Shown here: positions 16,931 to 55,350 of the stretch, piece by piece
Numbering within the stretch: the stretch's first letter is position 1
Layout: each line of letters starts with the position of its first letter
DNA from: Candidatus Caenarcanales bacterium
Lineage (GTDB): Bacteria; Cyanobacteriota; Vampirovibrionia; 2-02-FULL-35-15
Length of the DNA: 64,000 nucleotides
Direction: 5' to 3'
Assembly (NCBI GenBank): GCA_020050435.1
Contig: JAGVKQ010000007.1
Location: 1 to 64,000, forward strand
The notes under the pieces: generated by a model
What the model saw: only the letters and a program-made list of their open reading frames with translations
The model's database searches: none
What the model was told of the DNA's origin: nothing
Made by a program: the position numbers and the translations under genes

Positions 16931-17515
16931 ATGACTTTTGATTCAAGTAAACATCATAGGCATTCTATTCGGATACAAGAGTTTGATTATTCAAGTAACG
17001 GTTGTTATTTCATAACCATTTGTACAAAAAACAATGAACATCATTTTGGAAAAATTCAAAATGGAAAAATAATTTTGTCGGATGTTGGCGAAATTGTTTA
17101 TGATGAATGGATTAAAACAAAACAAATTCGGGAAAACATCGATTTGGATTTATTTGCCATTATGCCAAATCATTTTCACGGGATTGTAATCATCTATTGC
17201 ACCGGTGTAGGGGCATGCCGCGGCGTGGGGGCGTGTGGTGTAAGGGCGTATTGCAATACGCCCCTACGACAACGTGGATTTCAATCGCCATCGAATAATT
17301 TGGGTGCAATCGTTCGTTCATTTAAATCCTCCGTAAAACGCCGGTGCAATCAAAACGGTTTGGAACATTTTGAATGGCAACGTAATTATTATGAACATGT
17401 TGTTCGTAATGAAAATGATTTGGCGCGCATTCGTGAATACATTGTTAATAACCCATTGAAGTGGGAATTGGATAAAAATACCCCATTAATATCACCTGCT
17501 AAAATATTAAGGTAA
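16931..17515 (+). CDS. REP-associated tyrosine transposase (RAYT, Y1_Tnp/HUH family)
   Basis: This is a single-strand DNA transposase of the IS200-like HUH group associated with palindromic REP repeats. It has RRHSIR-type N-terminus (HHRHSIRIQEFDYSSNGCYF), the His-hydrophobic-His motif in IMPNHFHGIVII near residue 78, and the catalytic-tyrosine region FEWQRNYYEHVVRNENDL near 148, ending in EYIVNNPLKWELD. The length of 194 residues is typical. Between the two catalytic parts lies a Gly/Cys-rich stretch (CTGVGACRGVGACGVRAYC) encoded by repeat-like DNA that contains the same 20-nt palindrome found inside tsaC. Confidence 0.88.
   Translation: MTFDSSKHHRHSIRIQEFDYSSNGCYFITICTKNNEHHFGKIQNGKIILSDVGEIVYDEWIKTKQIRENIDLDLFAIMPNHFHGIVIIYCTGVGACRGVGACGVRAYCNTPLRQRGFQSPSNNLGAIVRSFKSSVKRRCNQNGLEHFEWQRNYYEHVVRNENDLARIREYIVNNPLKWELDKNTPLISPAKILR
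17244..17263. repeat. 20-nt palindrome inside the RAYT gene
   Basis: GGGCGTATTGCAATACGCCC is a perfect palindrome, flanked by GTAA on the left and CTACGA on the right. An identical copy with almost identical flanks is at 20290-20309 inside tsaC. Confidence 0.85.
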
Positions 17516-17526
17516 AGACGTCTCCT

Positions 17527-18630
17527 ATGCTTACTCAAGAAAAATCTCAAACCCTAGAAAACTACTGGCCATCTACAGAAAGCAGTAAAATCGCTGTATG
17601 TATGAGTGGTGGAGTAGATAGTAGTGTCAGTGCTTATATTCTTGCTAAAAAAGGATATAAAGCTGTTGGGCTTACTGGTTGGCTTTTTAAGGGATCAAAT
17701 AAATGTTGTGATGGCGGAATGATAGATGCAGCGAAGATTTCAGAAGATCTTGGTATAAATCACGTTTCTAAAGATTTAAGAGAATTATTTAAAGGACAGA
17801 TAGTAGATCATTTTATTTCTTCTTATGGAAGTGGATCTACACCGATTCCATGTATCACTTGTAATAATGTTATTAAGTGGGGATCACTTATGGATTATGC
17901 TCTTGGTGAGCTTGGATGTTCACATATTGCTACTGGACATTATGCAAAATTGGTTAAAGATGGAGATTTATATAAAATCACTAGACCTAAAGACAGTAAC
18001 AAGGATCAGACATTTATGCTTTGGGGATTAACTCAAGAAGTTTTATCTAAGACTGTTTTTCCTCTTGGAGATTTGACTAAAGATGAAGTTAGAGAGGTGG
18101 CTAGAGAAGGAAACCTATTTTTAGCTGAGAAAGAAGAAAGTCAGGATATTTGTTTTGTTTCTGATAAAGAAGGTACTAAAGGTTTTCTTGAAAGATATCT
18201 TGGGAAAAAAGAAGGATATATTATTGAAAATAAAACTGGAAATGTTTTAGGTACTCATGATGGTACTCATAGTTTTACTATTGGGCAAAGAAAAGGAATT
18301 AAGATAGCTTACAGTGAGCCGCTTTATGTAATTGATTTAGATGTAGAAAAAAATGTGGTTTTTGTCGGGACTAAAGAAGAGTTAGAAGGAAATGAACTGA
18401 TAGCTAAAGATGTAAATTGGGTTATTCCTGTCCAGCAAAATGAGCCTTTACGTGTGATGGCAAAAATTCGCTACAACAGTAAAACTACTTCAGCAACAGT
18501 TTTTTTCTTAGACGATAAAAAAATCAAAGTAGTATTTGATAATCCAGAGTCAGCTATTACACCTGGGCAATCAGTAGTTTTATATGATGAAGCTGATGAA
18601 GTTTTATTTGGTGGTGGGACCATTTGTTAG
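17527..18630 (+). CDS. mnmA: tRNA-specific 2-thiouridylase MnmA
   Basis: MnmA installs sulfur at the wobble uridine of Lys, Glu and Gln tRNAs. The PP-loop SGGVDSS is at residues 27-33, the first catalytic cysteine lies in PCITCN near 109, and the second in SQDICFV near 205. GHYAKL and SFTIGQRKGI are further family signatures. The N-terminus is slightly extended before the PP-loop. It is followed by a hairpin that probably ends transcription from both sides. Confidence 0.95.
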   Translation: MLTQEKSQTLENYWPSTESSKIAVCMSGGVDSSVSAYILAKKGYKAVGLTGWLFKGSNKCCDGGMIDAAKISEDLGINHVSKDLRELFKGQIVDHFISSYGSGSTPIPCITCNNVIKWGSLMDYALGELGCSHIATGHYAKLVKDGDLYKITRPKDSNKDQTFMLWGLTQEVLSKTVFPLGDLTKDEVREVAREGNLFLAEKEESQDICFVSDKEGTKGFLERYLGKKEGYIIENKTGNVLGTHDGTHSFTIGQRKGIKIAYSEPLYVIDLDVEKNVVFVGTKEELEGNELIAKDVNWVIPVQQNEPLRVMAKIRYNSKTTSATVFFLDDKKIKVVFDNPESAITPGQSVVLYDEADEVLFGGGTIC

Positions 18631-18644
18631 ACTTTGAAAAATAA

Positions 18645-18669
18645 AGGAGAGAGATTTACTCCCTCTCCT
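18645..18669. terminator. Shared terminator between mnmA and the converging hypothetical gene
   Basis: A 7-bp stem (AGGAGAG/CTCTCCT) with an 11-nt loop is followed on the minus strand by TTTATTTTTC, a good intrinsic terminator for the converging gene. On the plus strand the tail is weaker (TTGTATTTTA). Confidence 0.6.
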
Positions 18670-18678
18670 CCTTGTATT

Positions 18679-19625
18679 TTACGAGTTTAAGAACTGAACA
18701 GATTCACCAACTGCTCTAGGTATGTCAGCTTCAGAAACAATAGTTACCACTTTTACAAGTGATGATATTGCTTTTGCATGCTGATCTAGAAACTCTTGAG
18801 TGAAACCTTTTCCTGGTAAAAATGGAAGTGAGGCATCACCTGCAATTTTTCTGGCTAAATAAGCAGAAGCATTATTTGGTCTATTTTTATTACTATCCCA
18901 AACATCTGCTTTCACTAATTTATTATCAAGGATTATTACCTTGTTTCCAGCATCAATTGCATTTACGAAGTCGCCTACTGTAGCATCTCTTCCTCCTGTA
19001 GCCAGGAAAGAATTAGAAACTACAGATGTAGCCCTTGAGTATTCTTCATTTGTTGGAAGAACAAACTTGGGAGCCGCATGATATTTAGCTGAATCTATTC
19101 CATGCTCTGGGAATTTTGCAGGATCAATATATCCTACATAACCCTCAGCTGTGACGTATGTCAATGGCGCATTTTCTGCATGAGCTACTGTAGTGCTTAT
19201 AGCATCAATACTTCCTTTGTCGGCAGTCGGACTTGATGTTAGACCTGCAGTGTTACCCAGTTTTTTGACAAGTGAAGTTAAGAAGCTTAATGTCGGAGCT
19301 TCATAACCTTCAGGAGGTGCAGAGTAGCCAGCTGTGGCTAATCTATGAGCTAGATTTTTCCATGATTCACCTAATGGAATATCTTCTGCTTTTGCTACTC
19401 TTACAAGATTGTACTTATTTTCTGTCGCTGAAGTGTCACTTGCTCCAGTGGCTGAAGAGCTTGTACCTCCTCCAGCTGCATAAATAGGTTGTCCTGTAAC
19501 TGGGTCTCTTGGTTCAGTAGCAAAAAAAACTCCAAAAGGTTTTTGTTCTCTTTTTGAAGTTAATCCATCAATTTATAAATGTAGACAATAAAAAATGGCG
19601 TACTTAGTACGTTTCCTGCGCGCAT
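18679..19625 (-). CDS. Hypothetical protein, about 315 aa, frameshifted near its N-terminus
   Basis: The longest frame that starts with a normal codon is 18679-19164 (161 aa, TTG start), but the same frame is open up to about 19571 and has no ATG, GTG or TTG there. A strong ribosome binding site (GGAGAGGAGG) and ATG lie at 19623-19625 in another frame (MRAGNVLSTPFFIVYIYK). One extra base near the A-run at 19572-19574 joins the two, reading ..IDGLTSKREQKPFGVFFATE... The protein family is not recognised; it contains a Ser/Thr/Ala-rich linker and a C-terminal half with alternating helix and strand. The frameshift may be an assembly error or a real mutation. Confidence 0.6.
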
Positions 19626-19944
19626 ATTGTCCTCCTCTCCTGGTTTTTCAGGAGTTCATATTTTAAAGCGGCTTTGCATCCCTACCCCCAAGCAAAACCA
19701 ATCTACGAAAGCCTAGAATAAAACAACCTAATACTTATCTAATAGCAGTTTCTCTCTAATGTAGAGAAAAATCTACCTTAAAATAAGTTCTAGTCTTTTA
19801 AACTAAACTTACTTAAATGAGCTCCTGGACTGGTTTTTAAACCCATCTTTACCAGGAATATTTATGTAGGTAATGTATATTATATACCTAATGTGTATAA
19901 AAAGCAATACATATCCTCGATGAAATTAGTCTGATATAAAAAGT
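19626..19944. other. 319-bp intergenic leader region with small inverted repeats
   Basis: No gene is visible. Just upstream of the minus-strand ATG, CTCCTG and CAGGAG form a hairpin whose 3' arm runs into the ribosome binding site. An inverted repeat TAGGTA (19867) / TACCTA (19885) encloses an AT-only stretch. No convincing promoter or riboswitch could be named. Confidence 0.35.
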
Positions 19945-20529
19945 TTAACGAATAACAGTAATTCTTTTTTTATTGAACTCAATGATTTGAGAAGGTTTTA
20001 AAGACAGCTCACCTTTTTTAGCCTTAATAAATAAGCTTATCTTTTTTAAAATTTCTTTTTGTGGAAACTTTGGGCTTTGACCTGAGAGATTTGCACTGGT
20101 GCTGGCGAGAACCTGCCCAGGACATTTTTTTAATAGGCTAAGTAAGAATTTATTGTCAGGTACTCTCAGCCCAATTGTTTTAAATCCTTTATTTAAAAAC
20201 TTAGGGACTTTTTTAGAAGCAGGAAGAATTATGGTAAAAGCACCAGGCCATTCTTTCTTTATCATCTTTCGTAAGGTCGTGCTCTGTAAGGGCGTATTGC
20301 AATACGCCCCTGCGAATTTCTTCAATGCCTTCCAGTCATACCCTAAAAGTATAAGAGGCTTTTTTCTATCTCTCCCTTTTAATTTATAAATCTTTTCTAC
20401 TGCAATTTTAGAATCATATCTACAAACTAAACCGTAAACAGTGTCAGTAGGCAGTATTATGGGTTCATTATTTAAAATGAGTTTTAAACATTCATCAAAC
20501 TTCTCTTTCATGTTTAAATTATAAATCAT
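19945..20529 (-). CDS. tsaC: L-threonylcarbamoyladenylate synthase (TsaC/Sua5/YrdC)
   Basis: It makes the threonylcarbamoyl-AMP intermediate of the tRNA t6A modification. YrdC-domain features are LPTDTVYGLVCRYDS near residue 27, IYKLKGRDRKKPLILL near 46, WPGAFTIILPAS near 95, TIGLRVPDN near 118 and LASTSANLSGQ near 142. A palindromic repeat is inserted in frame, read as FAGAYCNTPLQSTTL near residue 72. The first ATG at 20529 overlaps the divergent dtd start codon; an ATG at 20511 (MKEKFDE) is an alternative. Confidence 0.9.
   Translation of the reverse strand: MIYNLNMKEKFDECLKLILNNEPIILPTDTVYGLVCRYDSKIAVEKIYKLKGRDRKKPLILLGYDWKALKKFAGAYCNTPLQSTTLRKMIKKEWPGAFTIILPASKKVPKFLNKGFKTIGLRVPDNKFLLSLLKKCPGQVLASTSANLSGQSPKFPQKEILKKISLFIKAKKGELSLKPSQIIEFNKKRITVIR
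20290..20309. repeat. 20-nt palindrome in frame inside tsaC
   Basis: Identical to the palindrome inside the RAYT gene at 17244-17263, including GTAA on the left and CT[AG]CGA on the right. The reading frame of tsaC is kept. Confidence 0.85.
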
Positions 20530-53995: not shown

Positions 53996-54481
53996 ATGGC
54001 TCTACCACAAAAAAACACTAGTTTAGAAGGATTTGACGATCTCTGGGAAGCTACAGATAGTAGTGAAGCTAATCCATCTGTAGATGCTACTTCTAAACAA
54101 ATCCAAGCAATTTTAAAAGTTTTAGTAGATGACAGAATTGCACTAAAGCAAGAGAATAACTTAGTTCAAGAATTAAAGCAGCATATGACTACTCTTGAAA
54201 ATCAAATTCAAAAAGTAAATTGGCAGTTGGGTCAAAGAGAAAAAGAGCTTTCAGATTTACATAGTGATTTTTATAAAGCAAAATCAGAAAAAGATAAATT
54301 AGAAAAAAATCAAAGTGACTATAAAGAAGTTTTGCAGGAAAACAAAGAAATTAGAAAATTAACAGAGCAGCTATCTAATCAAATACTTCAGGAAAAAGCA
54401 AAAAATGAAATGCTTGTACAGCTTTTAAAAGAATTAAAACAGCCAGAATTAGCTAAGATTGAGAAAAAGCTAGGGATTTAA
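53996..54481 (+). CDS. Coiled-coil protein, 161 aa
   Basis: After an acidic N-terminus (LEGFDDLWEATDSSE), residues about 40-155 form a long heptad coiled coil (QELKQHMTTLENQIQKVNWQ and onward). An AAGGA ribosome binding site precedes the ATG. It probably serves as a structural or scaffold protein; the partner is unknown. It overlaps the converging prmC by 4 bp. Confidence 0.65.
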   Translation: MALPQKNTSLEGFDDLWEATDSSEANPSVDATSKQIQAILKVLVDDRIALKQENNLVQELKQHMTTLENQIQKVNWQLGQREKELSDLHSDFYKAKSEKDKLEKNQSDYKEVLQENKEIRKLTEQLSNQILQEKAKNEMLVQLLKELKQPELAKIEKKLGI

Positions 54482-55350
54482 AAGCTTATAAATAAAAACC
54501 TATCAAGTTTAGAATAATCTTTTACAATTTCATATTTATCTATTTTATGCTTATTCATTAAAGACTTTAAATCGTTAACTAATAATGGGTCGATTTCAAG
54601 GGCTAATAGCTTGTCATTCCCATGAAAATGGGAATCCAGGGCTTGCGATTCATTTTTAGATTCCCGATCAAGTCGGGAATGACAATTGGCGGTAACAACC
54701 TCTAAAATCCTCTCATAATAAATTAACCCTGATTTGTTGTCTTTTGATCCTGTTAAGGCTTCTTTTGGCTCATGTTGAACTTCTGGGCTTAATGATTTCA
54801 AGTTTTCATCTTTAACATAGGGTGGATTTGAGATTATAAGATCAAATTTATTAGCATTAATTAATCCCTCAAAACACGTTGAAAATACATCACAGATTTT
54901 AAAGTTTATTTGATTGCCCACATTATTTTTAATGGCATTTTTTTTAGCAAGTTCAATAATTTCTTTATTTATATCAATGGCTGTAATTTTACAATTTGGC
55001 AGTGCTTTTGCAAGAGCGATAGGAATGATGCCTGAACCAGTGCCTATATCAATTACTGTAGGCGAGGTTTGCAAACCTCGCCTACCTGACCACAATCCAA
55101 ATCGTTTAACAGTTTCTCCTACCAACAACTCTGTTTCTGGTCTTGGTATTAAAACATTTTCATTTACCGCTACTTCAAAATCCATAAAGTAGGCTTTTCC
55201 TAGAATGTACTGCAAAGGTTTTCTTGTTTTTATTCTTTCATCTAAGATTTCTTTAATTTTATTTAGATCTTTTATTTCTTTTTCAAGAATAGAAATTTCT
55301 TTTCTAGCCTCAGACTCTTCTATGCCTGCATTGAGTAATCTTTGCAACAT
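54478..55350 (-). CDS. prmC: Peptide chain release factor N5-glutamine methyltransferase PrmC, with repeat insertions
   Basis: PrmC methylates the GGQ glutamine of release factors. Motifs: RKPLQYILGKAYFMDFEVAV near residue 44, NVLIPRPETELLVGE near 65, VIDIGTGSGIIPIALAKALP near 95 (SAM site), and the catalytic NPPY in DLIISNPPYVKDENL near 169. Two repeats are inserted in frame: a palindrome read as SGRRGLQTSP near residue 90, and a 25-codon element read as CHSRLDRESKNE and on to HGNDK near residue 230. The protein remains close to normal length, with a complete active site. Confidence 0.92.
   Translation of the reverse strand: MLQRLLNAGIEESEARKEISILEKEIKDLNKIKEILDERIKTRKPLQYILGKAYFMDFEVAVNENVLIPRPETELLVGETVKRFGLWSGRRGLQTSPTVIDIGTGSGIIPIALAKALPNCKITAIDINKEIIELAKKNAIKNNVGNQINFKICDVFSTCFEGLINANKFDLIISNPPYVKDENLKSLSPEVQHEPKEALTGSKDNKSGLIYYERILEVVTANCHSRLDRESKNESQALDSHFHGNDKLLALEIDPLLVNDLKSLMNKHKIDKYEIVKDYSKLDRFLFISF
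54611..54685. repeat. TTGTCATTCCC element in frame inside prmC (75 bp)
   Basis: Same family as 14787-14862: ends TTGTCATTCCC and GGGAATGACAA with two internal hairpins. It is exactly 25 codons long with no stop in the prmC frame, and lies between the catalytic core and the last strand. Confidence 0.8.
55058..55085. repeat. 28-bp perfect palindrome in frame inside prmC
   Basis: Arms GTAGGCGAGGTTTG and its complement make a perfect 28-bp palindrome in a variable linker just before the SAM-binding motif. The TTGCAA centre and the GTA/TAC ends resemble the RAYT/tsaC palindrome. Confidence 0.75.

Follow-up and report, generated by a model that had tools for sequence, protein, structure and literature searches.

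Why should a RAYT transposase gene and tsaC carry the same 20-nt palindrome, read in frame in both? The question is raised by a 64,000-nt stretch of DNA, referred to here as the window. As an earlier note on this DNA claimed, the palindrome GGGCGTATTGCAATACGCCC occurs exactly at 17244-17263 in the RAYT gene and at 20290-20309 in tsaC, and both reading frames (ORFs of 194 amino acids each) stay open across it. It is read in the same frame in both genes, as AYCNTPL. The window holds no further place within three mismatches of GGGCGTATTGCAATACGCCC, and 100 dinucleotide shuffles of the window gave zero matches to it. The "matching flanks" of the note proved correct for a shared unit of 28 nt, but further upstream only 10 of 16 aligned bases agree, and flank similarity beyond the 28 nt is too weak to claim that one copy derived from the other.

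The 20-mer forms the centre of an element of 28 nt, GTAR-N20-CYAC, with a true extent of 17240-17267 in the RAYT gene and 20286-20313 in tsaC. The feet are GTAA...CTAC in the first (GTAAGGGCGTATTGCAATACGCCCCTAC) and GTAA...CTGC in the second. The window contains these elements and host genes:

16931-17515, forward strand: RAYT (TnpA_REP-type Y1 transposase) gene, subclass 2.4-like, 194 amino acids
17207-17234: decayed second REP, GTAGGGGCATGCCGCGGCGTGGGGGCGT, RAYT residues 93-102
17240-17267: 28-nt double-foot REP, GTAAGGGCGTATTGCAATACGCCCCTAC, RAYT residues 104-113 (VRAYCNTPLR)
19945-20529, reverse strand: tsaC (L-threonylcarbamoyladenylate synthase), 194 amino acids
20286-20313: 28-nt REP in frame in tsaC, residues 73-82 (AGAYCNTPLQ)
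54478-55350, reverse strand: prmC-like release-factor glutamine methyltransferase gene
55058-55085: third REP of the window, a perfect palindrome, GTAGGCGAGGTTTGCAAACCTCGCCTAC, in frame in prmC, residues 89-98

Window elements and their putative transposase

As single-stranded DNA, each of the three window elements is surpassed in folding by at most one of 200 shuffles. The stem of the prmC element differs from that of GGGCGTATTGCAATACGCCC. Directly upstream of the intact RAYT-gene element, the decayed REP shares 20 of 28 bases with a perfect element of a relative, G007. The double-foot GTAG REP pattern, GT[AG]G..C[TC]AC, is matched by the family consensus (GTAG..CTAC) and by the prmC copy; departures from it are the GTAA 5′ foot of the RAYT and tsaC copies and the CTGC 3′ foot of the tsaC copy. 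TsaC was identified by its PF01300 and TIGR00057 matches, and its REP-encoded residues 73-82 form the loop between the LKKF helix and WPG. At this position, the loop of E. coli YrdC is different and four residues shorter.

Two other features of the host region were noted. On the reverse strand of prmC (54609-54684) there is a second, unrelated in-frame repeat, an inverted pair of ATTCCC..GGGAAT palindromes (GTCATTCCCGACTTGATCGGGAATC ... GGATTCCCATTTTCATGGGAATGAC) that encodes CHSRLDRES...DSHFHGNDK. A similar peptide occurs in recJ of the same genome, and the repeat could be a REP of the CGTC type. A frame between mnmA and tsaC (18679-19545, reverse strand) by eye resembles the C-terminal part of a phosphate-binding (PstS-like) protein. 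It is apparently interrupted near 19560 and is missing from the shorter RAYT-mnmA-tsaC interval of two relatives, G001 and G007.

Both by profile (2.6e-7) and by fold (3.8e-7, TM 0.53/0.61), the solved structure nearest to the RAYT is that of a RAYT in complex with a REP hairpin (4er8); IS608/ISDra2 come next. The match to Pfam Y1_Tnp (E=2.6e-4) is slightly below the curated cut-off, and that to NCBIfam REP_Tyr_transpos (NF047646) has an E-value of 1.2e-18 and 67.4 bits, with a cut-off of 80. The motifs NHFH (H81, H83), W149-Q150 and YIVNNP (170-175) fit the table for subclass 2.4, whose double-foot REPs, GT[AG]G..C[TC]AC, in some cases lie in frame inside the transposase gene, between the HUH and Y motifs and in a peripheral variable region (Quentin 2018, PMC6006769). 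The REP inside the window RAYT gene likewise lies between the HUH and Y motifs and leaves the frame unbroken. By motifs, fold and internal REP, the predicted protein matches TnpA_REP subclass 2.4 (RAYT group 4).

In the AlphaFold2 model of the RAYT, residues 93-115 have pLDDT <50 and most of the core is >90. The two RAYT-gene elements encode residues 93-102 and 104-113, and so lie within the protein's own loop, which the model predicts to be disordered. No REP flanks the window RAYT, and the internal palindromes are the sole GTAG-type ones near the gene, which is therefore not a classical RAYT unit (REPtron) flanked by inverted REPs. The genome itself has five RAYT matches.

In the family, the loop that follows the HUH strand holds a palindrome in nearly every RAYT, each with a stem of its own. 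Among 80 RAYTs from many phyla, which are the best matches to the window RAYT and not a neutral sample, 55 have a gene-internal palindrome and 48 a GTAG/CTAC-tagged one. Nearly all of these palindromes lie within some 35 codons past the HUH motif; equally long neighbouring RAYT stretches, taken as a control, have a palindrome in 22 of 148 cases. Exact GGGCGTATTGCAATACGCCC was found in 4 of the 80 (a Zixibacterium, a Syntrophaceae genome, a Bacteroidales and another Bacteroidetes genome). In a small sample, the window RAYT's own stem is not commoner in its own genome than in relatives, and a match of RAYT-internal stems to the dispersed stems of the same genome was looked for and not seen.

Dispersed elements and their placement in coding sequence

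In the 2.49-Mb draft genome (30 contigs), a pattern search found 8 places within three mismatches of GGGCGTATTGCAATACGCCC. A wider form occurs at about 30 places, with varied, mostly self-complementary stems, many of them in frame in conserved genes (46 strand hits, compared with 15 for the reversed control). The earlier note had made its proposal depend on there being more than two copies in the genome, which is the case. Profile search named only tsaC, mnmA, prmC and the RAYT, and the other host genes were recognised from their sequence. Host ORFs with an in-frame element include what we take to be trpC, recJ, recN, nadD and leuS, a hydrolase gene of the metallo-beta-lactamase fold, a radical-SAM gene with two sites, and an alkyltransferase-like and a phosphoglucomutase-like gene.

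A search for GTA..TAC palindromes of 22-36 nt gave 11 in G000, 35 in G007 and 33 in G009 (about 400 kb each; matches mostly 27-29 nt), compared with 0-2 in shuffled sequence and 0-4 for four-base control tags. Three-base control tags mostly gave 1-12, and TAG, which is contained in GTAG, was as high as GTA. G014, from another family and with no RAYT match found when one was looked for, has 2. Element density is 31 per Mb in the sample of the window's own genome and 85-92 per Mb in G009 and G007. As elements were chosen for pairing, their high pairing is no evidence, and it is the excess over controls that counts. Among 75 clear 28-mers from five genomes, 69 different half-stems occur; their consensus, GTAG-R-G-R-C-G-T, is loose, and some cores recur, GTATTGCAATAC and GTAGCATGCTAC among them. 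Exact GGGCGTATTGCAATACGCCC occurs in 13 of 386 Cyanobacteriota genomes, two of which hold 65 and 49 copies.

Exact GGGCGTATTGCAATACGCCC was also detected in 8 viral contigs, in some of them in frame in long ORFs (e.g., 799 amino acids). Double-foot REPs may travel on phages, or these contigs may be misassigned host DNA. The genus of G009 has another, longer family of dispersed repeats: about 90 nt of G009 recur at dozens of places in G010 and at several in G005, in either orientation.

Among 71 clear elements from 400-kb samples of three family genomes, 38 lie inside ORFs, 12 at ORF edges and 21 in intergenic DNA. Coding sequence is thus avoided per base, because ORFs (simple picks of >=80 amino acids) cover about 89% of bases, yet it holds half of the elements, in gene interiors. 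All 38 in-ORF elements use frame offset 0 (VGA..TPL) or 2 (RG..AP), and offset 1, which reads TAG or TAA, is used by none. An insertion of fixed size (28 minus a 4-nt shared foot, or 24 nt, which would always be in frame) was considered as the cause of the in-frame placement and rejected, because net length differences from palindrome-free relatives vary (about +3, +9, +18 and +27 nt at different sites). To account for this placement, selection on frame suffices.

Different hairpins at one site

In RAYT, tsaC, trpC, recN, prmC and a radical-SAM gene, the hairpin at a given codon and frame differs between genera. The RAYT gene lies between an lptG-like gene and mnmA in G001 and G007 too, with a remnant in G003, and the three orthologous RAYTs at this locus have different internal palindromes. 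The comparison of tsaC with relatives, proposed in the earlier note, showed a palindrome or remnant in the loop of most family members, with stems that differ, and no palindrome in G002, G004 and G006. Relatives carry other palindromes or none, which refutes an ancient, conserved origin of the segment in the two proteins. Stems also differ at a common position between relatives in trpC, recN and one radical-SAM site, and between G000 and G007 in prmC.

Closer relatives show smaller changes. G009 and G005, from one genus, share an intergenic site (329511) with homologous flanks at which two compensated stem pairs differ, and a coding site with a partly compensated change; other sites are empty in G005 or G010. 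In rsmG, G006 and G009 have a common stem core at one site and differ there by a single compensated pair. Taken together, nine same-site comparisons show 34 stem pairs altered on both sides and 16 altered on one side. One ancestral insertion with later change of the stem was tried on a tree of five concatenated proteins, but with supports of 17-43 this species tree is too weak for a count of gains. As a separate observation, an enolase-like gene has a REP in a loop in G009 where G005 and G010 have low-complexity tandem repeats (ACGAACGACGAACAACG; CAACACTCAATACC) that differ between the two.

Insertion hotspots, replacement and in-place arm-to-arm correction are all possible sources of same-site difference. 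If correction acted by itself, there would be no mobile copies, and hairpin-templated mutation (quasi-palindrome correction) would use one arm as the template for its partner at native GTAG-like sites. The 34 to 16 ratio of two-sided to one-sided change, the compensated pairs between homologous flanks at 329511 and the trpC of G007, whose left arm resembles native codons with a net gain of about one codon, fit this explanation. However, stem cores that recur across genomes and phyla need copying between places, and a distant cyanobacterial genome holds as many as 65 copies of exact GGGCGTATTGCAATACGCCC. In addition, 3-8 pairs often differ between the stems found at one site, and the choice of elements for pairing inflates paired change. 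We consider this explanation improbable.

It is very unlikely that the internal hairpin is functional for the RAYT, whether by autoregulation or by a REP-encoded loop that helps to recognise the REP, with enzyme and substrate changing together. Its recurrence in the loop of most sampled RAYTs, in many phyla, and the different stems of the orthologous lptG-mnmA RAYTs would suit such a role, but the loop is modelled without structure and lies away from the DNA site (Quentin 2018, PMC6006769). Moreover, internal stems match the dispersed stems of their own genome no better than those of other genomes, 25 of the 80 RAYTs have no palindrome at the threshold, and housekeeping genes carry palindromes too. 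An old conserved segment or a chance match, suggested by the AYCNTPL common to both proteins, is a negligible prospect and already refuted by the shuffles and by relatives with other palindromes or none at the site; the different, shorter YrdC loop also speaks against it.

Double-foot REPs as loops in conserved proteins

In combination, the results are best read as the earlier note proposed, as a RAYT-linked repeat family that invades coding sequence; there are about 30 places in the genome, and the segment is not ancient. The elements are dispersed, tagged, palindromic and limited to some lineages, and ORFs hold more than half of the clear ones, in frame. Each double-foot REP consists of a 5′ GTAG or GTAA, a self-complementary stem of about 20 nt and a 3′ CTAC or TTAC. 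We hold it to be highly probable that the palindromes are such REPs, served by TnpA_REP/RAYT enzymes of subclass 2.4, and by analogy we infer that the window RAYT may mobilise them. Judging from its family, the RAYT would bind the hairpin on single-stranded DNA, cut at the GTAG foot and join the element elsewhere. In-frame copies in tolerant surface loops would then survive selection, in housekeeping genes and the RAYT gene alike, because two of the element's three frames are without a stop. Counted against the REP/RAYT reading are the varied length changes, with which a simple 28-nt insertion is not enough for all sites, the RAYT's own stem, which is not enriched, and the lack of REPs flanking the RAYT. 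More tentatively, and with some doubt on our part, the loops might be standing landing pads, in which a REP is overwritten repeatedly or its two arms change in step, with position and frame kept constant, giving conserved proteins, the RAYT included, fast-changing peptide loops.

The window RAYT resembles subclass 2.4 (RAYT group 4) in its NH[IFV]H, WQ and YIxNNP motifs and its 194-residue length, in the variable insertion between the HUH strand and the next helix, and in the GTAG/CTAC-footed REP inside the transposase gene with the frame kept (PMC6006769). It differs in lacking flanking REPs, and the stems here vary from copy to copy within a genome. GTAG REPs are known from many phyla, inside housekeeping and repair genes (Di Nocera 2013, PMC3733652), as here. 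Those REPs are mostly intergenic, whereas about half of ours are intragenic, and different REPs at about one site were reported there for recB of two Xanthomonas species, compared with at least six genes here. Orthologous, syntenic RAYTs with different REP classes in related strains, the 'orthoswitch' (Nunvar and Licha 2013, PMC3686654), have REPs that flank the RAYT rather than lie inside it. The Rickettsia palindromic elements (reviewed in PMC3733652) are also palindromic repeats in frame inside functional genes, but that review groups RPE-4 and RPE-6 with CGTC-tagged repeats and RPE-1 with longer palindromic insertions, and they have no GTAG foot.

REPs in RAYT genes of subclass 2.4 and in housekeeping genes have thus been published and are not new in kind. 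The intragenic density and the extent of same-site difference go beyond PMC6006769, PMC3733652 and PMC3686654. With these results, the known range of double-foot REPs within genes extends to an uncultured, Melainabacteria-related family. About half of its elements are intragenic, and their hosts include proteins usually essential elsewhere. Annotators should note that short peptides such as AYCNTPL, VETLHATS and RGVLQYAPT come from translated repeats and should not be taken for conserved motifs. Orthologous sites at which the stems differ offer a natural test of repeated insertion, replacement or hairpin-templated correction.
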